Source of the DNA: Psococerastis gibbosa
Lineage: Eukaryota > Arthropoda > Insecta > Psocodea > Psocidae
Direction: 5' to 3'
Assembly: GCA_963971405.1 (NCBI GenBank)
Contig: OZ020487.1
Span: forward strand, 10,947,344-11,011,343
DNA: 64,000 bases
The notes beneath the pieces are model-generated. The model saw only the letters and a list, made by a program, of their open reading frames with translations, did not search any database and was not told the DNA's origin. Positions 1,202 through 62,211 of the stretch are shown in pieces (position 1 is the first letter of the stretch; each line of letters begins with the position of its first letter). Made by a program: the position numbers and the translations under genes.

Positions 1202-1599
1202 AGGCGGGGTTTCCACCGACCTCTCATTGCAGAATGCAAAGACATTGACGTGGTAGCAGACATTCAAGACTTAGGCGGTATTCCACCGACCTCTCATTGC
1301 AGAGTGCAAAAATGACATTGACGGAAATTTGAATTTTTCTTTTTATAGAAATCTATTAAAATGTTTGTTCTTAACATATCACATGACGCCCTTTTTTTAA
1401 TTTTAGTTTGTTTGTGATTTTACTCTATGATCATTGATCAATTTTAACTATGACATAGAGTAAAACAAAAATTTCCGTCAATGCCATTTTTGCACTCTGC
1501 AATGAGAGGTCGGTGGAATACCCGCCTAAGTCTTGAATGTCTGCTACCACGTCAATGTCTTTACATTCTGCAATGAGAGGTCGGTGGAAACCCGGCCTT
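1202..1599. mobile_element. Nested foldback MITE, family A copy 1, TSD TTA
   Basis: The outer tip GGCGGGGTTTCCACCGACC is repeated inverted at the right end, with TTA on both sides of the tips. Within the arms lies GACGTGGTAGCAGACATT; a second complete tip pair sits inside (about 1275 and 1530), so the element is a MITE inside a MITE. The centre carries the shared ORF-start core, here damaged. Confidence 0.85.
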
Positions 1600-9743: not shown

Positions 9744-10130
9744 AGGCGCCCATTCCACCGACCTGCTAGGGCTATTTACAAAAACAGTGACGTGGTAGCA
9801 GACATTCAAGACTTAGGCGGGGTTTCCACCGACCTCGCATTGCAGAATTGACGGAAATGTATGTTTTCCCTATGCTATAGTTAAAATTGATCAATGATCA
9901 TACAGTAAAATCACAAACAAACAAACTAAAATTAAAAAATGGCGTCATGGGATATGTTAAGTACAAACCTTTTAATAGATTTCTATGAAAAGAAAAATTC
10001 TAATTTCCGTCAATGTCATTTGCATTCTGCAATGCGAGTTTGGTGGAAACGCCACCTAAGTCTTGAATGTCTGCTACCACGTCACCGTTTTCGTAAATAG
10101 CCCTATAGTCGGTCGGTGGAATGGGCGCCT
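9744..10130. mobile_element. Nested foldback MITE, family A copy 2
   Basis: Tips are GGCGCCCATTCCACCGACC; arms carry GACGTGGTAGCAGACATTC; an inner tip pair and the core are present. The core on the plus strand from about 9938 still reads MASWDMLSTNLLIDFYEKK. Confidence 0.83.
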
Positions 10131-11035: not shown

Positions 11036-11428
11036 AGGCGGGGTTTCCACCGACCTCTCATTACAGAAAGCACATACGTTGACGTGGTAGCAGACATTCT
11101 AGACTTAGGTGGGGTTTCCACCGACCTCTCATTGCAGAATGCAAATGACATTGACGGAAATTTGAATTTTTCTTTTTATAGAAATCTATTAAAATGTTTG
11201 TACTTAACATATCCCATGACGCCATTTTTTAATTTTAGTTTGTTTGTGATTTTACTCTATGATCATTGATCAATTTTAACTATGGCATAGAGTAAAACAA
11301 AAATTTCCGTCAGTGTCATTTGCATTCTGCAATGAGAGGTCGGTGGAAACCCCGCCTTTATTAATGATATCTGCTACCACGCCAACGTATGTGCATTCTG
11401 CAATGAGAGGTCGGTGGAAACCCCGCCT
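11036..11428. mobile_element. Nested foldback MITE, family A copy 3 (mixed arms)
   Basis: Outer and inner GGCGGGG tips as in copy 1, but the two outer arms differ near the centre: the left reads CATTCTAGACTTA, the right TTTATTAATGATATC. The core on the minus strand reads MASWDMLSTNILIDFYKK. Confidence 0.83.
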
Positions 11429-12140: not shown

Positions 12141-12604
12141 AGGCGGGGTTTCCACAAACGTCAATCGTCAATGAGAAATATGAAATTGAAGGACATTTCA
12201 ATTTTTCATTGATGGCGGTGTTTCCACATGTTTTTTCAACTATTGACACTTTTCTTATTTTGAAACGTATGCGCCAAATTTTTGAAATTTGTTTGCATTT
12301 GTTTTTTGAAATTTTATTTGTATTTCTTTTCTTCGTACACTTATTATTTTTAATACAACCCAATAATAGTAGGAGATTCGAAGTAAGGTCGACCTTCACC
12401 GATCTGTTTAATGAATGAAAACTATTTTATAAACAATCTATTAAAATTTTTGTACTTAACATATTCCATGACGCCATTTTAGTTTGTTATTGTTTGCAGC
12501 GCGTGATTTTACTCTATGATCATTGATCAATTTTAACAATGGCATAGAGTAAAATTGAAATGTCCTTCAATTTCATATTTCTCATTGACTATTGACGTAT
12601 GTGG
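12141..12604. mobile_element. Foldback MITE, family C copy 1, right tip lost
   Basis: Left tip GGCGGGGTTTCCACAAACGT. The arms carry TGAAATTGAAGGACATTTCA. The right arm is intact up to ATTGACGTATGTGGA, but the GGCGGG tip is replaced by other sequence. The core reads MASWNMLSTKILID then stops. Confidence 0.78.
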
Positions 12605-12714
12605 ACATTTCGAGCTTATTCACTGCGGCTGTGAATTTCCTGACTCACCTCCCACTTACTGTTTACAATGCATCCGAGATACCGGCATTGTTTTACATTG
12701 TACCACAGGTACAC

Positions 12715-19280: not shown

Positions 19281-19443
19281 AGGCGCCCATTCCACATACG
19301 TCAATCGTCAATGAAAAATTGAAAAATGATGTTTTAGCAGACATTAAAGACATACTAAAAATTCTGCAACCACGTCAATTTACGCCATTTTGACGTCATT
19401 TTCCAATTTTTCATTGACGATTGACGTATGTGGAATGGGCGCC
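19281..19443. mobile_element. Short foldback MITE, family B copy 1, TSD GAA
   Basis: 163-bp near-perfect palindrome with tips GGCGCCCATTCCACATACGT and arms CAATCGTCAATGAAAAATTG. The internal segment has the AGACATTAAAGACATACT motif. GAA flanks both tips. Confidence 0.85.
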
Positions 19444-31194: not shown

Positions 31195-31310
31195 AGAGAC
31201 GTCCACGAAACTGCTGGAAGGACGAATTAGAATCCGACTTCCGCGAGTTGGGAGTCCATATTGATGGTGGAAGTGGACCGAGATCTGGAGGAGTGTTGTC
31301 GAGCATGGGC
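31195..31310 (-). repeat. Family I repeat upstream of the RR exon
   Basis: On the minus strand shares CGACAACACTCCTCCAG, GGACTCCCAACTCGCG and TTTCGTGGACGTC with the 12.8-kb copy. Confidence 0.55.
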
Positions 31311-31493
31311 TGTATAGTCGGAAGAAAAAGAAAAAGACTAGTGATATATTCTCGGATGTGTCACAGTGAAGGGGGAGAGAGATGCAGCTTCCCGCATCTG
31401 AAGCCGCTCATCCTGGATCAATGGCCCTTCAGAAAACAAAGCAACCGTCATCACTTGACTTTATTGTATAGTGGGCAATTTTATATGTTTCAG

Positions 31494-31689
31494 GTTCAGT
31501 ATGAGTACCAATACTCAGTAGATGAGGGCCTCCGGAAAGGTCCAGTTATGGATCGCTGGGAACGTCGGCTAGGGGAGTACGTCAAGGGCGGCTACTCGGT
31601 TGTCGACCCAGACGGAGCGGTCCGAACGGTCGACTACGAGGTCGACGGTCACAAGGGCTACCACGCAGTGATACGGTTCAACCCACCCA
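31494..31689 (+). CDS. Cuticular protein exon with the RR-2-like domain
   Basis: Acceptor ATATGTTTCAG, donor CCCA/GTAAGT. Enters in phase 0 and leaves with one base (A), which with GC of the next exon makes Ser. The open frame continues left of the acceptor to 31248, but that part overlaps a repeat on the other strand and has no signal peptide, so it is not used as a start. Confidence 0.9.
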
Positions 31690-34106
31690 GTAAGTCCCAG
31701 AGTTGTGACACTAACAATATACCTAACTTTAATCTGGGGATTAAAAATGTTCACAAACCAATTTTGAACAGCACTTTCCGTTTCCGTTCTAAAATTATCT
31801 TGTTTCCATTTTTAATCCCAGGTTAAGATTAAAAATAATCGCCATAGTAGGTAGGCGAATGAAACAGAGAAGAAAATCCACTGCCTGCGGGCCTACTAGC
31901 CTATGCCGTTTAGTGTTAACTTATTCCTGGGGTTAAAAATGTAAACAAAACAATTTTGAATCGCATTTACCATTATAAAATTAATTAATTAATGTAATAA
32001 AGATTAATTTAATCCCAGGCTATGATTAAAAATTATCGCCGAAAGTAACTAGGCCTAGGTATAGTTCATTAAATGTAATTTCAAAGGCTTCCACAGCCGA
32101 AGTTACATGATGAAGCAGTAGGACGATAGCAGTAGCTGCTGAGCCTCCAAGATACAATCTTAGAAGTATACGCAGTTCCACTGAAGATGTCGACCGCAGA
32201 TGTTGACGAAACGTTTGGAAGTACGCTTTCAGAACGCCCACGACCTATCGTCCTGGATACTACTGCTTCATCAAATTTAATTTGTTTCAGCTAATTTTAT
32301 TTTATTCCTATAATTCTCGAGTCCCTGTCGCAAATTCGTCGAAATGTGTTCGCGCCATCTTTCAAAGCCTTGCCATAATATAAATTGCTTTTGTACTTCC
32401 TCCAAGGTAAATTGCAGTGTGTTGCAGGATAAGTCGTGATTGGTCCCTCCTTGCCGTGATTGTTTGGTTTATATTGTGATTGGTCCCTCATTTACCAATA
32501 ATAATTGATCTGCTTTCTTGCTTAACAGTTTCTAATGTCTGGGCTGTTTTTCTTGTCAATCACTCTGATATTATAGCAAATTGCTCTTTCATTGTTACTA
32601 TATTGGGATTGAAGGTGTGCTTGTGCCCTTAAAAGCAAGTGTTGAAGCTCAAGGGCAATTGGACAATTTATAGAGGTTGACATGCATTTTAAAGATACCA
32701 TATGCCATGTACGAGTATTTGACGAGCAATTGGGATTTGGGAGTTAAGCCCCAGTGCTCAAAATGCTTTGTAAACCAAAAATTATTGTAATTTTTGGACG
32801 AAATTAATTAATTGCTCGTTCTACAGCCACAAAGATATAAAAGGGAACAGATGAAAAAATCTTAAAAAATACGAACTTTCTGTGCAAGTTGTCTATTTCC
32901 CCTACAGATTTAAAACTGTGCTACAAAATGGGTTTAAGGCTCTTTATCCCATTTTTTTAAGGTAATAATATTTCAGTTCAGGAAATGTAAACTTCCTGCG
33001 ATAACTTGTATTTTTTATGTGTTCACTTTGTTATCTTTGTCTCTGTGGAACAGGCAATAAATTAATTTCTCAAAAAATTTCTTGTGTACAAAACATTTTG
33101 AACTTTTGACTTACCATTTAAGCTGTAAATGGGCTCTTGATTTTGCTCCACAGGCCGTGCCCTGCTGAGTTCCGTACAGCTAGCTCATTCCAACGACCTG
33201 TTTCCACTGGGTTCGACAGCCAATCAGGTCGCAGCAGTCAGCGAGCTACCCTTACCAACCCCCACAAGCTCGGACCTGCCGCACAACTATCATGCCAAGC
33301 CGCCATACATTAACAAATTCGGTAAGAGTGAGGCTAGGTATACCCCCTGAACAGTCTTGTACAGCCAAGTACCGTATTGGTATTAACGGTTTTAATTATA
33401 TTATGAAACTAGTGCCGTATGCACACAATGCACACGCAAAAACACAACAAAACTGAACATGAGCATACGGCACAAACTAAAAGTATTCGGGCGATTATTA
33501 TTGGACTCAAATAAGATGGGTAAAGAACTGCAGGGAACCATAATTGTTTTGTAGATATTCTATGTACTATGTAGGCCTACTATTGAACTTTGCATTCCAT
33601 TCCGTCCTTTATCGATACAATCCATCATCAGACTTCTTAATTTAATTGCAACTAGCTTCAAATGATGGTACGAGTAAATGGCGATCCTATGCAATTTAGG
33701 GCTTACTGTTGACGCGTGTGCATTTAAAGTACCCACACTGCTGACTTTTACACTTTCCGCAGGGTATAAAGACTACAAAACAGCCGCTAGCACCAATATT
33801 GCCATGTCTTCCCAACTGCCGCCCAGCCCCGTCAACTACAATGCGTTGAGCCACAAGCGGAACCCCATTTTCTACAAGAGCCCTGCAGGCAGGATTCTGC
33901 CCCCCGCGGGTCCCACTCCACCTGTCTACAATTTGGATGCGCTCCTGCCGCGTCAGGGGGAGCCGTTGAGCACAGGGGGCTATACATTGCACACGCAGGC
34001 CATACCACGGCCCCCACCACCCACGCTCAAGAGGAACTCAAAGTTGGTGAAGAGGTTCGATTCGTTTCAACGGTCGGTGTATATTGAGCCGTCGAATGGG
34101 TATTAG
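31494..34106 (+). CDS. Cuticular protein, RR-2-like chitin-binding (chitin_bind_4), 5' incomplete
   Basis: Structural protein of the chitin-containing cuticle, expected to be secreted and to bind chitin through its Rebers-Riddiford domain. Three coding exons (31494-31689, 33154-33321, 33763-34106) splice in phase into 235 codons plus TAG. The domain fills the first exon: YEYQYSVDEG, then GEYVKGGYSVVDPDG, then RTVDYEVDGHKGYHAV, matching the RR-2 pattern GxYSxxxPDGxxRxVxYxxDxxxGFxAV. The rest is Pro/Ser/Asn-rich with many tyrosines and ends YIEPSNGY. The N-terminus with signal peptide is missing; it must lie upstream, possibly through the candidate exon at 28357-28443. The first intron holds two foldback repeats. 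RR-2 rather than RR-1 is likely but not certain. Confidence 0.88.
31725..32045. repeat. Two family K-like foldbacks in the cuticular gene intron
   Basis: Copies at about 31725-31850 and 31895-32045 each show GGGATTAAAAATGT or GGGGTTAAAAATGTAAACAA and the inverse ending TTTTAATCCCAG or TTTAATCCCAGG. They begin about 40 bp after the RR-exon donor. Confidence 0.68.
32755..32900 (+). repeat. Family P repeat (also 2570-2790, 3930-4085)
   Basis: AATGCTTTGTAAACCAAAAA, GACGAAATTAATTAATT, TCTACAGCCACAAAGATATA occur in similar order in all three places and in part at 49.3 and 53.0 kb. Confidence 0.55.
33154..33321 (+). CDS. Cuticular protein exon, Ser/Pro/Leu-rich linker
   Basis: Acceptor TGCTCCACAG, donor TTCG/GTAAGA. 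Fully open in the phase set by the previous exon. It encodes RALLSSVQLAHSNDL, a PLPTPTSSDLP stretch and HAKPPYINKFG, with no recognised domain. Confidence 0.82.
33763..34106 (+). CDS. Cuticular protein terminal exon, Pro/Tyr-rich tail
   Basis: Acceptor ACTTTCCGCAG; split codon G+GG gives Gly, then YKDYKT. It runs 113 residues to TAG at 34104-34106. It is rich in Pro, Ser and Tyr (PPSPVNYN, PPAGPTPPVYN, PRPPPPTLKR), typical of cuticle protein flanks. GC content here is well above the AT-rich surroundings. Confidence 0.85.
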
Positions 34107-36429: not shown

Positions 36430-36593
36430 AGGCGGGTATTCCACATACGTCAATCGTCAATGAAAAATTGAAAACTGACGTAACAATGACGTAAATTGAC
36501 GTGGTAGAAGAATTTTTAGTATGTCTTTAATGTCTGCTAAAACGTCATTTTTCAATTTTTCATTGACGATTGACGTATGTGGAATACCCGCCT
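36430..36593. mobile_element. Short foldback MITE, family B copy 2, TSD TTA
   Basis: Same arms as the 19.3-kb copy with GGCGGGTATTCCACATACGT tips; TTA on both sides. The central segment lies in the opposite orientation. Confidence 0.85.
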
Positions 36594-41300: not shown

Positions 41301-44300
41301 AAAACAAGCAAACAAATAAACTTCTGGCCCTCCTCCGTCTGGTTTCCGTCCCTTCCCCACTGTCCTTCCTACCCTCTATCTCATCAAGTCATTTCTTCGC
41401 ACATCAGCAATTATTCATTCTCCTCATGTGTCCGAACCATCGATTATAAGGCAAGCATTGGATACTTATTTTTTTGGGCTACATCTCAGAACCTTATATA
41501 GTACTATTTCTTCGAGCATACCTGGGGAGGGGCTGAGGCTGTACTTGCTGCTTGGCCAGGAGGCGGTTCGGCCCTAGTGGCACTGTCCACCTTCAGTGGA
41601 AGCCCCTCAGTTCGCCCTAGCTTCCTGAACTCCTCGTGAATGTACTGCGCAGCTTCGGGTCTGCGCTGCTTACTCAGCAGCCACATAGGAGACTCGGGCA
41701 TCACCCTGGACCAAAGAACAAATCAAAATTGTACAATTTAAAAATAAAAAAAATGTTACCATTCGCCATACCCACATGATATCTATGATATATCCAGGCC
41801 ATAGGGCAAAACTGTTTTTTATATTTTATATTGTTTAATTGTAAAGATGGAATTAAACTATTCATTCAAACATTCATTCATCGTATATTGTATCTAAAAG
41901 ATATTATAGGGCAGCATCCGCTAAGTAATAGGGTCCCCAGGGTAGCTGATTTGGCTGAGAACTGGATTATGCACGGGACTGTTGAGGTTCTAGACTTGAA
42001 ATAAAAGGAACAATTTTCCACCGGGCATGGTTCCACCGAAACTTAATGGGTACCTTATTACCAAAGTAGGCTGCCTGTCATGACCACATCGCCTAAAATA
42101 GAACCATGTGCAAGAAAGAGAAATCTTTTACCCTACCTCAGCCCCTAATGCTTGATTAGTTCTCGTGCCAACGCGTTTTTTATAAGCAAAAATTGCATTA
42201 TGAATTATTGGGTTAATATTATAAAACTTGCCAGTAAAAACATATACACAAAATGGCAGGTACTGAGATGATGGCCTGTAAAATTCGCCAATCACGGACG
42301 TAGTAGGCGATTATGGGAACAATCATCTCGCCAATCGGATAGCTCATATTGTACAGAATACCCAGGCTTGCTCGTCTCTTCTTATGCGCAAGTTCAGACA
42401 CTGAAATAAATAAAAATAATATAGTTTTCTAATAAGGGTGTATCTTTATCATACCTAACGCATAAACATTTGCCAGAACGTGATTTTGCATTGTTTTGTA
42501 AGTAAGTAAATAATATATTATTATTATTATTATTAGTGGATGCTTTTATATGTTTCGGTAACCAACGCTAAACCGTACACGGGCCGGTGCCTTGCAGTAC
42601 GCCAATTAATTGTCATAAATTGTAATTGTTTTGTTGTTGGTATCAATATAATTGAATTGAATTGAATTGCATTTAACATATTTTACATTTCAAATGACAA
42701 CCCCAGCACTAAGTACTCTAATAGAAACCAATATCGCTGGTAGAAAGTTGATTTCACTGAATTTGGTACAGTCAAAATAATTTAAAAAACACAAAGATTA
42801 TAAAAAATTGAAAACGATAGAAAATTTAAAATTTGTATCCGTCGCCACCTTTTGATGAACTGAAAGTTCATCCTTGACGTCATGCGCTCATCTCTTTCTG
42901 GCTGGCTAGCCCATATGAGTTGGAGGCTGCAACCAGCGCAGCGCAGTGGACCAGAGACTATGTACAGAAGGGTGCCACAGAGGAAACTGGTACTGGTATT
43001 TTTCAGACAACCTTGTTTAAGGGGATACTCACAAATGACGAAGGCGGAGTGGTAAATGCCAGAGCCAGCGGCTCCCAGGCCAATTCGTCCCGCGATGACC
43101 AGCCCATACGAGTTGGCGGCTGCAACCAGTGGCCCAGAGATTATGTACAGAAGGGCACTGCACAGAAAACTAATACGTCGGCCAAATTTGTCAGAGACAA
43201 CGCCGAACAGAAGAGCGCCAACGAACTTGCCGAGGGAGAGGGCTACTTGAACAGTCGACTTGAGCGCAATCCTGCCGCACACTAGGTCAAACTGCGAAGT
43301 AATGGTCGAATTAGAACAGAATTCCAAGTAATAAAAAATTAGGTTATTCAGAACTTCGTGGTATTTTATTTAAGGCAACCTCAAATGAGCTAATGGTACT
43401 GAGGAGACATTTGTAAAACAAAGGGCCCTTGCCTAGGGTAAAGAGCTAGTGAGTAGCTGCAATAAAGGTTTTACTCGCTTAGGTAGTATCCCTATTACAA
43501 TTACAAGAAATTTTAACAAACAAAAAAAAAGCATGGAGTTTACATCAACTAGCTTTTAAAGCTTTTTTATAAGCCTCCACAAACTTGCCAGGGGTCACGG
43601 ACTTTTCATATTTTACACAATCGCTGCCAAGGAAACAGTTGCTAAACTTCCGAACCATATAAGATTGTTAATAAGATAAATATCTGTGGTAAAATGGACA
43701 AAGTAAGGTAAAATAGAAATTAGCCATAAAAGTAAATATACGAGATTGTCATTGTAATATTAATTTTGTTTATTTTAATTACTATATATCTATTTACCTG
43801 AGTTTTACCACTTTACCACAGGTAAGTGAGCAGCATTGATACTTACGTCCAGAACCATGGAGGACACTCCTTCCGCAAAATCATGTCTACTGCAGGCGAC
43901 AGTGCGATTGTGCTGGTTCTGTGCTGCAGCGAGAGCTTCGTCGAAACTGAGACCAGCCAGACTGTTGTAGTCGAGGTCGTACATCTCGCACGAAGACCCA
44001 TTGCTGCCAACCGAAAACAACGAGCCAGTAAGTCACAGCTCAAAAAAGGTCAAACTTGTCGCAATCAAAACGAGATTGCTGAAATTTCGTGACGTAGCGT
44101 GGTCACGTTTCGATTCATTGCCCCGAGCACGCTTACCAACTATAGGCGCGGTTTCCAACGACCTCTAAGTGCAAAATACACATACGATGACGTGGTAGCA
44201 GATGTCATTAATAAAGGCGGGGTTTCCACCGACCTCTCATTGCAGAATGCAAATGACATTGACGGAAATTTTTGTTTTACTCTATGTCATAGTTAAAAAT

Positions 44301-45750
44301 GATCAATGATCATAGAGTAAAATCACAAACAAACAAACTAAAATTAAAAAATGGCGTCATGGGATATGATAAGTTAAAACATTTTAATAGATATCTATAA
44401 AAAGAAAATTTCAAATTTCCGTCAATGTCATTTGCATTCTGCAATGAGAGGTCGGTGGAAACGCCGCCTAAGTCTTGAATGCCTGCTACCACGTCACCGT
44501 TTGTGTATTTTGCACTTAGAGGTCGGTGGAAACGTCGCCTTATGTCATTGGCACTTCAAGGATGGTTACATAACAGGAATACTGGACGTCGCAGCCATGT
44601 TCCAATGCATGGTGGTGCATTGAAAGGGGTGCATTTTCCCATTTTATGCATCTGGTATGTCATTTTCAAGCGACATGTGACTGACGTCCTATACCGTAGA
44701 CACTGGTAAAAATCAAAAGCGCAGCGTGGGTAAGGAACCCGAAAGGTTGTTGGTTCGAGTCCCACACTTGCTATATTTCCTGGTCATGCTTCCTACAGCA
44801 TGAACGTTAAATGATTGACTGGCTGGGGATGGCATAAATACTAGACACTGGAGCAGGAATTCTTTCCAATGGCCGTATATGAGCTCTTAGAATTCGATGC
44901 AAGATGTAAGATTAGAAAAACTAATAACTCACGCTCACTTCCATTGTATTCTTTAAGCGTTTCAAGTTATGAGTGAGTAAAGAGCTGTAAAGATAGTGAC
45001 AAGCCATTTACGATGTGCCAATTCTAAGTAAGCTCCAGATTACATCGCTTTCAGGTGATGTATCTTGACAGTGTGGACAAGTTTTTCAATGTCCAAGTAA
45101 TTATATATAAACCAATATATCCAAACAATCATGGGGTCTTTGGTTTGGCGTTGGGCAAGGTTCAATCAGTACGTTCAAACCAAGTAGAGTATCGATACAC
45201 TGACGTCCATCGTTCATGTGTGGATAAGAGTTAGGCGGCTATTCCACCGACGTCGTTCTTCATTGTGCATGTGCATGATGTGGTAGCAAACATCATTAAT
45301 AAGTCTCTGCCATATTTTAAGGAGACTATTATGTAGATACTTAACTTATCTATTATAAATTAAGTTATAATATGGTAGAGACTTACTATTGATGTCTGCT
45401 ACCACGTCATGCACATGCACAATGAAAAACAACGTCGGTGGAATAGCCGCCTTAAGTTCCTAATCTTAAAGCTACCTTGCATGCTTGGGAAACAATGCAT
45501 ACCTTCCAGCAGGGCTAGAAAGTATCCTCTTCTGTTGAGATGTCCAAGAGGAGGAGTCCAACTCAGATACGTGGCACCAGTGTTCCGGGATATCCGTTAG
45601 GAAGACATAGCTGGTGACATTGAGTCCGTTAAGTATGGAGGGAAGCATGCAGATGAAGAAGATTTTGATGAGGAACGGACGGCTGTTGCCCACAGCCTCC
45701 AACTCCCGCAGAAGTTCATCTCCCTCCTCTTTACGACCATCCTCACTCAT
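38161..45750 (-). CDS. SLC22-type organic cation/anion transporter, 9 exons, complete
   Basis: Multi-exon gene of the major facilitator superfamily, SLC22 (organic ion transporter) family, predicted to move organic ions across the plasma membrane; the substrate cannot be told from sequence. Exons in transcript order: 45503-45750, 43847-44003, 43033-43291, 42232-42400, 41522-41705, 40640-40781, 39866-40054, 39124-39308, 38161-38334. They total 1707 nt (568 aa plus TGA), a normal family length, and every junction keeps frame. Visible landmarks: TM1 about 26-50, then the family signature TDIPEHWC (52-59); an extracellular loop with sequon NGS at 84; MFS motif A GKFVGALLFGVVSDKFGRR (156-174); PESPMWL (281-287); ELYPTLLRN (479-487); LPET (537-540). 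The start ATG at 45750 is the first in this frame and leaves a short cytosolic N-terminus before TM1. The large intron 1 carries MITEs and a SINE piece. Family assignment is confident; the orthologue is not. Confidence 0.93.
38877..38985. repeat. Minisatellite, about 30-bp unit, in transporter intron 8
   Basis: Three full copies of GCTCAATGAATCAGTTAATA-TTCCAGCCTA and a shortened fourth, with few differences. Intronic, about 140 bp from exon 8. Confidence 0.85.
39124..39308 (-). CDS. Transporter exon 8 (residues 450-511)
   Basis: Acceptor TTTTTCACAG, donor CTTGTG/GTAAGT, ends in phase 0. It encodes TM10-TM11 with ELYPTLLRN and the following Gly/Ser-rich helix, a hallmark of the C-terminal half of SLC22 proteins. 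Confidence 0.92.
39866..40054 (-). CDS. Transporter exon 7 (residues 387-450)
   Basis: Acceptor TTTGTTCAG, donor GGAG/GTAATA, ends in phase 1. It encodes TM8-TM9: LNVDNFRINRYVYGFLTGL, then a Pro-rich segment, RWMGRR and an Ala/Leu-rich helix ending IMPETG. Confidence 0.9.
40640..40781 (-). CDS. Transporter exon 6 (residues 340-387)
   Basis: Acceptor CGGATTTCAG, donor TTAG/GTAAGT, ends in phase 1. It encodes the end of the central loop (basic, starting SRIKAVLGKLK) and TM7, ending NFSYYGL. Open throughout and in frame with both neighbours. Confidence 0.88.
40880..41300 (-). repeat. Family J repeat in transporter intron 5
   Basis: Same blocks as the 37.0-kb copy in reverse: TAATCAGGAGGTCCACC, GTCCTGGTCACCTCCGAATT, GGCCATACCAAGTTCAGACC. 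Contains a short (TA)n insertion. Confidence 0.7.
41522..41705 (-). CDS. Transporter exon 5 (residues 279-339), PESPMWL motif
   Basis: Acceptor TTGGTCCAG, donor CCCAG/GTATGC, ends in phase 0. It carries PESPMWLLSKQRR after TM6, followed by a hydrophilic, Pro/Ala-rich central cytosolic loop, as expected for the family. Confidence 0.9.
42232..42400 (-). CDS. Transporter exon 4 (residues 222-278), ends at a GC donor
   Basis: Acceptor TATTTCAG. Split codon T+TG gives Leu, then SELAHKKRR. The only donor that keeps frame and restores the family spacing FYW-x-x-PESP is TACTG/GCAAGT, a GC-AG intron donor. No GT donor nearby does so. Confidence 0.87.
42895..43000 (-). pseudogene. Broken partial duplicate of transporter exon 3
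   Basis: About 100 bp in intron 3 closely repeat the segment of exon 3 at about 43090-43185. The shared translation runs SFLC-x2-LLYI(V/I)SGPL. The copy has a 10-bp insertion and frame changes, lacks exon 3's splice sites and stops short of motif A. It reads as a decayed tandem duplication, not an alternative exon. Confidence 0.8.
43033..43291 (-). CDS. Transporter exon 3 (residues 136-222), MFS motif A
   Basis: Acceptor ACTTCGCAG, donor ATTT/GTGAGT, ends in phase 1. It begins FDLVC and encodes TM2-TM4 with the cytosolic-loop motif A, G-K-x2-G-x8-D-x2-G-R-R. Part of this exon is duplicated in the following intron (about 42900-43000). Confidence 0.93.
43847..44003 (-). CDS. Transporter exon 2 (residues 83-135)
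   Basis: Acceptor TTGGCAG, donor GAC/GTAAGT, ends in phase 0. It encodes the rest of the extracellular loop between TM1 and TM2, with sequon NGS and the CEMYDLDY stretch. Joining to exon 3 at FDLVC restores the spacing usual in the family before the (E/D)xDLVC motif. Confidence 0.9.
44144..44540. mobile_element. Nested foldback MITE, family A copy 4, in transporter intron 1
   Basis: Starts about 140 bp upstream (transcript sense) of the exon 2 acceptor. Its left arm has the CATTAATAAA type and its right arm the CAAGACTTA type, the reverse of copy 3. The core frame is broken by an early TAA. Confidence 0.83.
44700..44795 (+). mobile_element. SINE fragment in transporter intron 1
   Basis: CCCGAAAGGTTGTTGGTTCG, AGTCCCACAC, then ATTTCCTGGTCATGCTTCC match the 28.9-kb SINE across the B box and the start of its body. 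Confidence 0.65.
45233..45452. mobile_element. Foldback MITE, family D, TSD TTA, beside transporter exon 1
   Basis: Long palindrome with tips GGCGGCTATTCCACCGACGT and arms containing GATGTGGTAGCAAACAT; TTA on both sides. It lies in intron 1, about 50 bp from the exon 1 donor. Confidence 0.85.
45503..45750 (-). CDS. Transporter exon 1 (residues 1-82 and part of 83)
   Basis: Begins at ATG 45750 and ends at donor AAG/GTATGC, phase 2. It encodes a charged N-terminus, TM1 and the start of the large extracellular loop with the SLC22 signature TDIPEHWC. The split codon AG+C gives Ser83 with exon 2. Confidence 0.9.
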
Positions 45751-45846: not shown

Positions 45847-46167
45847 GGAGCGGAGTACCTGGAAAATAATAAATACGGATAGGTAATGGACCTGAAAGGT
45901 AAGGGCCCTTTTACACCAAGAAGTTTACATAATATGAAAAGCTTGCAGTTTGTTTATTTACATAAAAAGTAGTCTGCTTATAAGAAGGAAACACTTTGCC
46001 CAATGTAAACACGGAATGACAAGCTTATCCTATGTTAATTTTTTGCTTGAGCCGCGCGGATAGTCGCTTGCTACATTACAAAAGGGCTCTTAGGTGGCTC
46101 TGGCATGTGAAGAGGATAAATTTACATGAGTGCCCAATGAAGTCCTCAACAAAAGTCCTGCAGGCTT

Positions 46168-46420
46168 AGGCGCCCATTCCATTGACCGGCTAGGGCTATT
46201 TCCAAAAACAGTGACGTGGTAGCAGACATTCAAGACTTAGGTTGCGTTTCCACCGATCTCGCATTGCAGAATGCAAATGACATTGACGGAAATTAGAATT
46301 TTTCTTTTTATAGAAATCTATTAAAATGTTTGTACTAAACATATCCCTTGACGCCATTTTTTAATTTTAGTTTGTTTATTTGCGATTTTACTGTATGATC
46401 ATTGATCAATTTTAACTATG
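46168..46420. mobile_element. Truncated family A MITE, copy 5
   Basis: The left outer tip (GGCGCCCATTCCATTGACC), arm, inner tip and core are present. The right half ends abruptly inside the core at about 46420, where a different repeat (family N) begins soon after. Confidence 0.75.
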
Positions 46421-50478: not shown

Positions 50479-50587
50479 GGCGGGGATTCCACCAATGTCA
50501 ATAGTGATATTAAATGTTTTTTGACGTGGTCGCAGACATTTTTAGACCCCATTTAATATCACTATTGACGTTGGTGGAATCCCCGCC
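50479..50587. mobile_element. Short foldback MITE, family E copy 2, TSD TTG
   Basis: 109-bp palindrome GGCGGGGATTCCACCAATGT...GGTGGAATCCCCGCC, flanked on both sides by TTG; one internal GACGTGGTCGCAGACAT motif. Confidence 0.83.
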
Positions 50588-54727: not shown

Positions 54728-55164
54728 AGGCGGGTATTCCATATAAGTACAACGTCAATGAAAATTATGAAATTGAAGGACATTTCAATTTCTCATGGCG
54801 GCCATTCCATATGTTTTTTCAAAAATTGACAATTTTCAATTGAAGCGTATGCGCCAATTTTTTGAAATTTGTTTGCATTTGTTTCTTGAAATTGTATTTG
54901 TTTTCTTCATCGCCTTATTATTTAAACCTTATTATAATTTTTATACAGAAATGCTTTCTTTTTAGAGAAATCAATTAAAATAGTTGCACTTGTCATATCC
55001 CATGTCGCCATTTTTTAATTTTAGATTGTTAGTTTCATTGTTTGTGATTTTACTCTATGATCAATTGATCATTGATCAATTTTAACAATGGCATAGAGTA
55101 AAATTGATATGTCCTTCAATTTCATAATTTTCATTGACGATGTACGTATGTGGAATACCCACCT
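54728..55164. mobile_element. Foldback MITE, family C copy 2, TSD TAA
   Basis: Tips GGCGGGTATTCC/GGAATACCCACC with TAA on both sides. The core reads MATWDMTSATILIDFSKKKAFLYKNY then terminates. It matches the 60.4-kb copy on both sides of a missing internal block, so it is an internal-deletion derivative. Confidence 0.84.
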
Positions 55165-56777: not shown

Positions 56778-57164
56778 AGGCGCCCATTCCACCGACCGGC
56801 TAGGGCTATTTACAAAAACGGTGACGTGGTAGCAGACATTCAAGACTTAGATGGATATTCCACCGATCTCGCATTGCAGAATGCAAATGAAATGTTTGTT
56901 TTCCTCTATGCCATAGTTAAAATTGATCAATGATCATAGACTAAAATCACAAACAAACAAACTAAAATTAAAAAATGGCTTCATGGGATATGTTAATTAC
57001 AAACATTTTAATAGATTTCTATAAAAAGAAAAACGAACATTTCCGTCAATGTCATTTGCATTCTGCAATGCGAGATCGATGGAAACCCAGCCTAAGTCTT
57101 GAATGTCTGCTACCACGTCACCGTTTTTGTAAATAGCCCTAGCCGGTCGGTGGAATGGGCACCT
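56778..57164. mobile_element. Nested foldback MITE, family A copy 6, TSD TTA
   Basis: GGCGCCCATTCCACCGACC tips with TTA on both sides, GACGTGGTAGCAGACATTC arms, an inner tip pair and the core, which reads MASWDMLITNILIDFYKKK from about 56973 on the plus strand. Confidence 0.84.
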
Positions 57165-58339: not shown

Positions 58340-58870
58340 ATGTGCCTTTGATTTGGTCAATTTTACTTCGAATTCGATTTTTTCATTGATGGAAACTCAT
58401 CAATGTTGCATTATTTATTTTTACACCCCATTCCACTTGTTTTCAACAATTGATCATTTTTGTTTTCATTTTTTTCCAAATTTGTAATATCTTTCGTCCG
58501 TCCATCCGTCGTTCTTTTTAATTTTATAAGGCCGACATTAAAGACATACTAAAAATGTCTGCTACCACGTCAAAACCATATTTACCATTGACCATTGACG
58601 TATGTGGAAACCCCGCCTAATCTACAAGAGATTTTATGATTTAAACTACGAAATAATTTGTTCGTTTTCAACAAATTAATTAAAATTATTTATCATCTCT
58701 AGACGACGCCATTATTTAATTTTAGTCTGTTATTGTTTGCAACGCGTGCTTTTACTCTATGAGCATTGATAAATTTTAACACGAGGAAATTAAAATGGAG
58801 AAGGTCATAGAGTAAAACAAAATTCTCAAGTCAAATTTGAAGTAAAATTGACCAGTGGAATACCCGCCTT
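58340..58870. mobile_element. Composite, decayed foldback element of family C type
   Basis: Outer arms GGTCAATTTTACTTC at about 58358 and their inverse at about 58840 ending GGAATACCCGCC. A second tip (GGAAACCCCGCC, about 58606) with the AGACATTAAAGACATACT motif lies inside, and a degenerate core follows. Boundaries are approximate. Confidence 0.6.
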
Positions 58871-59354: not shown

Positions 59355-62211
59355 CTGCAATAACACAATAAAACCGGCATGAGACAGCTGATATAGATAC
59401 GATAGCAGATGAATTGGATGTGGTAATTCAGTGCAGAGGTTGTACTAGAGCTGCTTGCAGTTCGGGCAAGGCAGGTGAGTCAGATGCAGCTTTCCATCCT
59501 CAGCCTGAAATATCACAATAAACCTTGTACACTGATACAGATAGCAGATGTTCTGGACATCGTCGATTTGCACAAGTCAGATATGGTCTACTTACAGTAA
59601 GTGCAGTGCAAGTTCCAACAAGTAAAATGTTAATATTACAAATAATGACAGATTATATTATTGTTACGAAGTTTAGGACGAAGCTGCTTGCGTTTGGCTA
59701 AGAATCTTAATCACTCATTATTTTCCTGTTTCTGAGGATTGCGTTGGCACTATTAGGTGTTCGATAAAGCTAAAGTGCTAGAACATCACAATAATCACAG
59801 GTTATTGCTTTTCAATTTTTACGCAGTATAAGGAAAGCTTTGTGATGGTCGAAATTTTCGATTCCGAGATTTCAACGGATTTACACGTTTTGAGGTCCCA
59901 GGAACCCAAAAAAGTGTTTGTCTGTCGCTCTGTTTGTCTGTCTGTCTGTGAGTCGATTTCCGGGCAAACTTCTCGGTATATTTTGATGAAATTTTGCATG
60001 TAGGTTCGCAAAAATCATACCTCAGGACAATTTTTTATTATTTCGGGCTAACTCAATTGAGGGGGGGGGGGTTATTTTCGAAAAACTAAAAAAAAACGCC
60101 TAAAAAAATTATTTCTCAAAAACGGCTCCAACGATTTCTTTCAAATTCACATAAATTGTAGTCGTTATTAATGTTAACAAAATGCGGGGGGTCGCTTGCC
60201 CCTTGATAGCTTGCTTGTGGGGGTAAAAAAATAAAAATAACTCAATTTTCAATTTAAAAAAAAAAAACTTTCTGCGGAACCTTTCTATCGATGATTTTTA
60301 CCTTCAGATATGTTTTAGGTGTTCAATAGGATACAAAAACGGGCAGGTTGCATTCCCAAAAAAATATTTGCTTCAGTGCAAAAAATTATTTTTTGAGAAA
60401 TTATGGAAAATTCACGCTCCAATGGCGGGTATTCCACATACGTACATCGTCAATGAAAATTATGAAATTGAAGGACATTTCAATTTTTCATTGATGGCGG
60501 CCATTCCACATGTTTTTTTTTAAAAATTGACAATTTTCTATTGAAACGTATGCGCCAAATTTTTGAAATTTGTTTGCATTTTTTTCTTGAAATTGTATTT
60601 GTTTTCTTCGTCGCCTTATTATTTAAACCTTATTATAAAACCTGATAATAGTTTAGATCCGAAGTAAGATCGACCTTCACCGATCTGTTTAATGGATGAA
60701 AACTGGTTTATAAACAATTTAGTAGGCTAAGGACCACAAAATTCAATTCAATTCCCGGAAGTAAGAGAGTGCGTATGATAGTAGTTCATGCAATAGACAA
60801 TGATAACGATAGATTGGCGATAAGGCGGCTATTCCACCGACTTCGTTTTGCATTTTGCCATTCAATCGTTATTATTGCCTATTGCATGAACTACTATCAT
60901 ACGCGCTCTATTTTTTCCAGTAATTGAACCATGACCAGCTAGAAAACTGTGTCTTTGTCTACGGCACGAGACACATTCTCAGATCTCTTTGTTGTACGTT
61001 CACAATCGCATTGATATTTCATTTATTAAGTTCGGCAACCCTCATTCTGGCCAGGAGTTATGAAGGCAACCCTACATCATCGTATTTGCAACAAAGCCGC
61101 TTATTTCTATGTTTAATTTATCAATTAAACAAGTAGGTGAAGATAACTATATTTTTAGTAGCCTACCTGTGTAAACCTTGCCAACCCTATATATGTCCAA
61201 AAACATATAGACAACCTTACGTTTTCATACTCTACAGGCTTAGTACTCGTACTGGCTAGTGTAAAAAATACATCCAAAGACAGGAATTCCTCCAATTCTT
61301 TTAGCTTTTGCTTTTTCTTTCGACTATCTTTATAGCTTCCAAGATAATTTTTATACAGAAATGCGTTCTTTTTAAAGAATTCAATTAAAATGGTTGTACT
61401 TGTCATATCCCATGACGCCATTTTTTCATTTTAGTTTGTTTGTGAGTTTACTCTATGATCAATTGATCATTGATCAATTTTAACAATGGCATAGAGTAAA
61501 ATTGAAATGTCCTTCAATTTCATAATTTTCATTGACGATGTACGTATGTGGAATACCCGCCAATACATTACGCGACATGTGCCATTGTTACTACTGTTAC
61601 AATGTATTGGTCTGTTCGTTCCAGAATATGCAATTTAGTTTTAAGGGGGTTTTAATATATATTGATGTGACCCCCCCCCCCCTAGAGGGATCTGAAATTT
61701 AACCATAGGGAAATTATTTCCTATGTTATTACGCATGTCTATATCTACTAATTTATAAATTGGAAAGCATGTTCGAGTTAACTCGGACCGGTTCTATTAC
61801 TACTGTCTTGCAAGGCTTTGGACGGAGTTGTATGCGTGCGATGAGGTTAATCCTATTCAATTTAGCGGGTTCTCTATATTTTTCCTATTCTTCAGGATTG
61901 TGTTGACAATAGTAGGTGTTTGATAAAGTGTTAGAATATTTCAATGCAGCTTACCTTACTGGTACATGGTTCTGGACGAAGCTGCTTGCGTTTGGCTTTG
62001 AAAACGTTAATCTTACTCAATTTGGCAAGCAGGTTCTCCGTGTTGTTGCTATTCCTGAGGAATACGTCTACGTTCGGCGCCAGTGTTAGGTGTTCGATGC
62101 GTTCGACTTCACCCTCCTTACTGGCCGTGACCAGTCGCTGCGTAAAGATACTCACGTCCGGGTTGGGGACGCGTAAGATTCGGCTGTCTTCCGATTTAGT
62201 CTCTGCAACTG
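59148..62211 (-). CDS. C2H2 zinc-finger protein, last two exons (5' end outside window)
   Basis: C-terminal part of a probable sequence-specific DNA-binding protein of the nucleus. Exons 61955-62211 and 59148-59354 join in phase 0 and encode 153 residues before TGA. The first exon gives a linker without a known domain (VAETKSEDSRILRVPNPDV, then KINVFKAKRKQLRPEP). The second has two C2H2 fingers, each C-x2-C-x12-H-x4-H: CPHC...HVRLMH and CYLC...HLWEVH. Two C-terminal fingers on a late exon resemble insect BTB zinc-finger genes (broad, tramtrack, lola), but no BTB domain is visible, so the subfamily is open. The 2.6-kb intron is filled with nested transposons and a broken copy of the finger exon. 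Confidence 0.82.
59400..59504 (-). pseudogene. Broken duplicate of the terminal zinc-finger exon
   Basis: An acceptor-like ATATTTCAG leads into AEDGKLHLTHLPCPNCKQL, nearly identical to the functional exon about 150 bp downstream. It then meets an in-frame TAG (59445-59447) and loses frame before the first histidine pair. Flanking intron sequence is duplicated too. Splicing to it would give a truncated protein without a finger. Confidence 0.78.
60768..60905. repeat. Inverted repeat enclosing a lone GGCGGCTATTCC tip
   Basis: Arms GCGTATGATAGTAGTTCATG and its inverse enclose ATAAGGCGGCTATTCCACCG. It lies inside the 60.4-kb foldback element. This may be a family D tip trapped in, or generating, a palindrome. 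Confidence 0.65.
61155..61421 (-). CDS. MADF/Myb-SANT-like ORF remnant of the foldback transposon
   Basis: 88-codon frame starting MASWDM. The first half runs ILIEFFKKNAFLYKNY then YKDSRKKKQKLKELEEFL, resembling the start of a MADF (Myb/SANT-related) DNA-binding domain: LI-x-(F/Y) helix, LYxxxxxxYKD, then a charged helix. PIF/Harbinger transposons encode such a Myb/SANT-like partner besides the DDE transposase. The same start recurs, shortened and broken, in copies at about 9938, 11230, 12470, 46350, 54999 and 56973. After about residue 52 the frame has no recognisable domain, so it may be truncated or have lost a splice. Probably not functional. Confidence 0.5.
   Translation of the reverse strand: MASWDMTSTTILIEFFKKNAFLYKNYLGSYKDSRKKKQKLKELEEFLSLDVFFTLASTSTKPVEYENVRLSICFWTYIGLARFTQVGY
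61955..62211 (-). CDS. Zinc-finger gene, penultimate exon
   Basis: Acceptor CTTTCTTTACAG, donor AGTAAG/GTAAGC. Its first two bases (CA) complete a codon from an exon outside the window. It encodes 85 residues, mostly polar, with the basic stretch KAKRKQLR, a possible nuclear localisation signal. Codons are balanced and GC-richer than the flanks. Confidence 0.8.

Follow-up and report, generated by a model that had tools for sequence, protein, structure and literature searches.

MITE-like foldback elements of Psococerastis gibbosa with a MADF gene start: probable internal-deletion derivatives of a two-gene PIF/Harbinger transposon

The window element and its copies

The window, a stretch of 64,000 nucleotides of Psococerastis gibbosa DNA, contains a foldback element of family A (the window element), whose parts are listed in Table 1 together with its copies in the window and the genes of a larger relative, L021. 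Its minus-strand ORF of 88 codons (61421-61155) has a translation beginning MASWDMTSTTILIEFFKKNAFLYKNYLGSY, and the ATG lies at nt 141 counted from one tip. The leader preceding the ATG (61422-61497) is common to families A and C, and largely also to L021 and to another genomic locus, L063; it is a possible binding site. The tip sequence GGCGGGTATTCCAC occurs 40 times with up to three mismatches, as compared to 2.6 expected occurrences. In several arms the tip is repeated 70-72 bp further in (60424/60496, 1203/1273, 11037/11108 and 12142/12214), and these inner tips are sometimes flanked by TTA or TAA, as if the arm had grown by self-insertion. Smaller foldbacks, 109-218 bp long and bearing tips of this kind, lie at 36431-36592, 19282-19443, 50479-50587 and 45234-45451, each with an exact 3-bp duplication. 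Elsewhere in the window, the ORF at 31248-31826 encodes a cuticle protein (Chitin_bind_4, E 4.5e-14).

Table 1. Features of the window element, its copies in the window and the genes of L021 (window coordinates unless L021 is named)
Feature	Position	Strand	Remarks
Whole non-autonomous element, family A, 1138 bp	60424..61561		tips GGCGGGTATTCCAC at both ends, AAT flanks
Target-site duplication AAT, left copy	60421..60423
Target-site duplication AAT, right copy	61562..61564
Terminal inverted repeat (TIR), transposase-side end	60424..60487	+	100% over 64 bp vs other end
Terminal inverted repeat, MADF-side end	61498..61561	-	100% over 64 bp vs other end
Remainder of leader, TIR to ATG	61422..61497	-	TGATCA repeats and CTCTATG/CATAGAG arms
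MADF exon 1 remnant, codons 1 to about 49	61273..61421	-	L021 alignment; Pfam MADF positions 1-37
Read-through of 88-codon ORF and stop; non-MADF, antisense of transposase-side DNA	61155..61272	-	L021 alignment
Transposase-side end of parent, upstream of transposase start	60424..61270	+	L063 alignment; L021 transposase exon 1 from 2784
Inner foldback around second tip GGCGGCTATTCCAC	60747..60928		inverted self match 74.7%
Family A copy	54729..55163		TAA duplication; MADF start 55011 minus
Copy, A-like arms, right tip lost	12142..12605		MADF start 12477 minus, closer to L024 than L021
Family C copy	1203..1597		TTA duplication; MADF start 1392 minus, ATG changed to AGG
Family C copy	9745..10129		MADF start 9939 plus; flanks TAA/TTA, no exact duplication
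Family C copy	11037..11427		MADF start 11225 minus; flanks TTA/TAT, no exact 3-bp duplication
Family C copy	44145..44539		MADF start 44351 plus; flanks ATA/TTA, no exact duplication
Family C copy, truncated	46164..46420		MADF start 46357 minus
Family C copy	56779..57163		TTA duplication; MADF start 56975 plus
Transposase exons of L021	L021 2784-3257, 4157-4966	+
MADF-gene exons of L021	L021 6380-6150, 5430-5242, 4160-3894	-

An earlier note on this DNA had described families A and C as differing in their arms while sharing a core that starts an ORF, with the ATG context kept in at least six copies, and both statements were borne out. The 18-mer at the ORF start, ATGGCGTCATGGGATATG, was found with up to three mismatches at nine window sites, as compared to 0.03 expected, and none of 100 shuffles reached nine. 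The ATG is kept at eight of the nine, the exception being 1392. With E denoting the window element read on its MADF strand, four family C copies match it at 79-85%, two of them over E 39-196, one over E 61-196 and one over E 1-196, that is, over the shared leader and first codons. Measurement of three family C copies put the outer tip at 197-206 nt from the ATG and the inner tip at 126-135 nt.

The start of the ORF is also repeated across the 409-Mb host genome. A DNA search with the ORF gave 43 matches, some inside larger loci, and a query of 77 residues from exon 1 was scored against 150 of 11,804 loose genome candidates. All 150 matched, 137 of them from codon 1 (10 over the full 77 residues and 127 over shorter lengths). 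The elements are therefore MITE-like in being short, lacking a complete coding sequence and occurring in many copies, with nine window sites and 127 of the 150 scored matches partial from codon 1.

Tips were paired by eye, which gave 13 pairs from window elements and 9 from loci elsewhere in the genome, 22 in all. An exact 3-bp duplication flanks 14 of these pairs and is absent from the other 8, and a duplication of 4 bp or more was found in none, confirming the 3-bp duplications described earlier. In 10,000 trials with randomly re-paired flanks, the mean was 5.5 and the count did not exceed 13. The exact duplications are TTA (6) and TAA (3), with AAT, GAA, TTG, AAA and TAT occurring once each; AAT, the duplication of the window element itself, is thus among the five exceptions to TTA/TAA. 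The count leaves out the window pairs 12142-12605 and 46164-46420 (tip lost) and 58577-58868 and 60824-60937 (no proper pair), the inner-tip reading 1203-1526, and the genome loci L001 (the window copy), L005, L008, L011 and L016 (tip lost) and L063 (flanks CTA/TTA), and it covers neither L013, L014 nor L017-L020. PIF/Harbinger elements prefer TWA target sites. Their duplications, as given in the accessible part of PMC2213677, are 3 bp long, as are those found here, nine of the 14 being TTA or TAA.

Deletion junction and parent transposon

The window ORF matches positions 1-37 of the 84 in the Pfam MADF profile (PF10545) and scored 15.3 bits (E 0.026) with a cut-off of 22, a shortfall expected for a truncated domain. 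Genes whose first exon starts MASW(D/N)(I/M) are present in L021, L022, L023/L061 and L024, where L061 is the stretch adjoining L023 that holds the later exons of its gene, the two being one locus. MADF was detected above the cut-off in exon 1 of L024 (E 2.1e-9), exon 2 of L024 (E 2.2e-8) and exon 1 of L021 (E 6.5e-8), so that a second gene of the Myb/SANT/MADF kind is found in both. The larger relatives in the host genome combine a gene with two MADF exons and a DDE_Tnp_4 transposase on the opposite strand. In L021, transposase exon 2 matches DDE_Tnp_4 (PF13359) at E 1.1e-27, and the transposase, of 428 codons in two exons, is stop-free, with D187, D278/279 and E315 placed by eye. A protein search of the host genome listed 92 transposase matches. 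The descent from a PIF/Harbinger element proposed in the earlier note is thus upheld both by profile and by genome search, the larger relatives carrying the ORF together with the transposase.

None of the fetched loci combines both tips with two intact genes. The ends are common to L063, which has both but only gene remnants, and L021, which has the MADF end only and lacks the second MADF exon and the left tip. In L022-L024, tips like those of the window element were not seen joined to the genes. Beside the L021 element, L021:284-1435 is a second DDE_Tnp_4 ORF (384 codons, E 1e-36), probably of another Harbinger lineage. In the PDB, the transposase exon had no match at E 0.01, and two weak matches to MADF exon 1 (E 0.44 and 0.96) were taken as chance. 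In IMG/VR, seven stretches fitted a pattern and none encodes a relative.

CACTA and Chapaev3 elements also make 3-bp duplications, and foldbacks from such a superfamily could resemble a MADF gene by chance. The window ORF, which by itself falls under the Pfam cut-off, and the five of 14 exact duplications that are not TTA/TAA (AAT, GAA, TTG, AAA and TAT) would suit such an origin. However, the homologous exons of the relatives exceed the cut-off in the same loci as DDE_Tnp_4, and nine of the 14 duplications are TTA or TAA, so that we consider this origin extremely improbable.

The alignment with L021 locates the deletion. E 8-295 matches L021 6517-6226 at 88.7%, E 292-1013 matches L021 2310-1577 at 95%, and the roughly 3.9 kb of L021 between the two aligned parts is absent from the window element. 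The earlier claim that the 5' end of the DNA-binding-protein gene had been kept after an internal deletion is supported by these alignments on either side of the gap. At the junction, near 61270-61273, E departs from the MADF side of L021 after CTTTGGA and enters the transposase side at TATTTTTTACACTAGC; 2-3 nt there match neither side. The window element consists of the MADF end (TIR, leader and about 49 codons) fused to the transposase end. The 88-codon MADF-like ORF of the earlier note does exist, but as a chimera by its alignment: about 49 codons are MADF, and the remainder reads transposase-side DNA in reverse. L063 matches E 292-1138 at 93% (L063 4363-3504) and E 8-224 at 89%, and is, by sequence, a second deletion product with both ends and other, shorter gene remnants. 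The inner foldback probably predates the deletion, since its counterpart is present in L021 and L063. In shorter derivatives (e.g. L007 and L009), E 281 is joined to E 695.

We therefore conclude that the window element and its relatives are very probably MITE-like internal-deletion derivatives of a PIF/Harbinger transposon with two genes, one for a MADF DNA-binding protein and one, on the opposite strand, for a DDE transposase, and that they keep the gene start as a passenger and are presumably moved in trans. This conclusion draws on the homology to both parent ends, the junction, the tips, the duplications and both parental genes, all of which were observed. Internal deletions, for example through interrupted gap repair, would have retained the two ends with adjoining sequence. 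The short elements would then presumably be moved in trans by both proteins of complete elements, which may recognise the tips or the leader, with insertion mostly at TTA/TAA-like sites and the making of 3-bp duplications.

The two families appear to differ in their source. In a 149-nt comparison of exon 1, the window element shares 130 positions with L021, 123 with L022 and 120 each with L023 and L024, and six other A-type genome copies share 122-124 of 141 with L021 and 111-117 with the other loci. The family C window copies are closest to L024 in six of six cases (51-54 of 58-60) and more distant from L021 (45-48 of 60), with L023 as near as L024 for the copy at 46357. The A-armed copy at 12477 shares 42 of 45 positions with L024 as compared to 36 with L021, and the copy at 55011 is tied (61 of 75 each). 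By these identities, the window element is nearest to the L021 lineage and the family C copies to the L024 lineage. Most likely, A and C go back to two lineages of a single transposon, with arms and cores partly mixed, and 12142-12605, with its A-like arms and L024-like gene start, gives a hint of exchange between both lineages. When the family C arms were compared with 11 large loci, no arm was recognised as joined to a transposase, and the whole-length matches were family C insertions.

Retention of the MADF start

The first MADF codons would have been kept as a passenger because the start codon lies so close inside one tip, and A and C would have kept the same part of the gene because that part is close to the transposon end. 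Position can thus explain the retention most simply. An active short peptide, such as a truncated MADF protein interfering with transposition, would be another reason to keep the start; small P-element products interfere with transposition, and about 42-52 MADF codons are open in several A-type copies. However, the pooled pN/pS of the MITE ORF was 0.84 (pS 0.034, pN 0.029), near neutral in a small sample of nine copies (L001, L002, L004, part of L006, L007-L009, L011 and L014; L003, L005, L010, L012, L013, L015 and L016 were outside it, having indels or not being extracted). Of the 84 profile positions, the retained piece includes only 1-37, many scored genome copies have in-frame stops, and L012, L013 and L015 carry indels. 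As position alone can account for the retention, we regard selection for a peptide as very unlikely.

A requirement for the leader is a somewhat better candidate, though a doubtful one, and is compatible with the positional explanation. The TGATCA-rich leader may be a binding site needed for transposition, in which case deletions removing it would not have been amplified. The leader is common to families A and C and to L021/L063, and the accessible part of PMC9710019 reports that the Myb-like protein of zebrafish Harbinger3_DR binds a 9-bp subterminal motif. On the other hand, the 18-mer search found no MADF start in the four small tip families of the window (109-218 bp), which still have exact 3-bp duplications.

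Anonymous foldback repeats are now tied to a parent. The junction shows how one gene start can come to be shared by MITE families from apparently separate lineages, namely through its position, and an ORF start common to many MITEs need not imply selection for a peptide.

Predicted interlocking of the parental genes and comparison with known systems

The two genes of the parent appear to meet in an unusual arrangement. In L021 and L024, the loci read for this, donors and acceptors are GT-AG and the introns were read as phase 0; the exon-3 donor is mutated in L021, where L024 has GTGAGT, and an additional exon of L024 encodes a second MADF domain. The meeting point in L021 reads ...CTTGCAG/GTTCCTAAAACAAAG on the plus strand and CTTTGTTTTAG/GAACCTGCAAG on the minus strand, the slash marking the splice boundary. 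The exons overlap there by 4 bp, and the pyrimidine tract of the transposase encodes lysines on the other strand. The putative last MADF-gene exon, starting at this point, is termed EX4 below.

After removal of eight duplicate loci, 29 loci with the start of transposase exon 2 were counted, and 10 of them have an antisense ORF of 85-89 codons from the meeting point. L060 and L038 retain an EX4-like sequence whose frame is no longer open, the antisense frame spans 17-18 codons in L035 and L039, and 15 distant transposases (L042-L056, several near-identical) lack this antisense ORF. In 12 tblastn matches the EX4 frame contains no stops as compared to 21-90 in the other five frames, a count biased toward EX4 because the matches had been found with that frame. 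When random substitutions were simulated, a copy remained free of stops with a chance of 0.31 at 10% divergence and 0.08 at 25%. Between the deepest EX4 groups (L058/L034 against the others), pS was 0.74-0.89, near saturation, and pN 0.34-0.39, with a ratio of 0.38-0.50. The ratio was 0.62 for L021 against L057 and 0.75-1.08 for L021 or L057 against the L024 group, often exceeded 1 inside the L024 group, the youngest, and was 0.55 when pooled. Median dN/dS values were 0.47 for MADF1, 1.27 for MADF2, 0.61 for EX3, 0.89 for EX4, 0.51 for TNP1 and 0.67 for TNP2, all of them weak estimates from pairs with a defined dS that include many decaying copies and, for MADF2, count the single locus L023/L061 twice. 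We take EX4 as a real exon, much decayed, and its order, phase and splice sites appear to assign it to the MADF gene. A BESS-type tail was considered for EX4 and rejected, as five copies (L024, L059, L032, L021 and L022) gave no Pfam BESS match.

These features make it moderately likely that the parental genes form an interlocked antisense pair. The last MADF exon would lie in the transposase intron and transposase exon 2 in the last intron of the MADF gene, with mirrored 3' splice sites, a 4-bp exon overlap and each polypyrimidine tract serving as coding DNA of the other gene. Splicing would then be needed for either full protein, and the pre-mRNAs, complementary over about 1.1 kb, could couple or limit both proteins, each of which a Harbinger requires.

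Insect PIF/Harbinger transposons with two genes (PMC9710019, in the part accessible) likewise unite a DDE transposase and a MADF/Myb-like gene in one element, whereas the MADF gene of the parent described here has two MADF exons and is apparently interlocked with the transposase gene. The same part of that paper presents the domesticated gene pairs of Anopheles as adjacent and not in every case co-oriented, and holds no mention of interlocked exons. Teleost Harbinger elements also encode a transposase and a less conserved Myb-like protein, and in the accessible main text (PMC9179366) the words orientation, opposite and overlap are absent and no interlocked exons were found. Interlocked Harbinger genes did not appear in the literature searched, a weak negative given that most subscription papers lay outside the search. 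Among the Medicago MtPH elements, the two ORFs occur in either order, and internal deletions and related MITEs are described (PMC2213677, accessible part). Their MITEs and those of rice mPing/Ping (in part after PMC9921582) resemble ours in being short and in having the ends of a larger two-ORF element whose interior was deleted; by contrast, the elements described here still contain the first part of the DNA-binding-protein gene, and in their foldback arms a tip is repeated 70-72 bp inward. Two-gene Harbingers and their MITEs were thus already known, and the unexpected part is the predicted interlocking of the parental genes, which, if transcribed as predicted, would be an unusual linkage of two proteins that have to act together.
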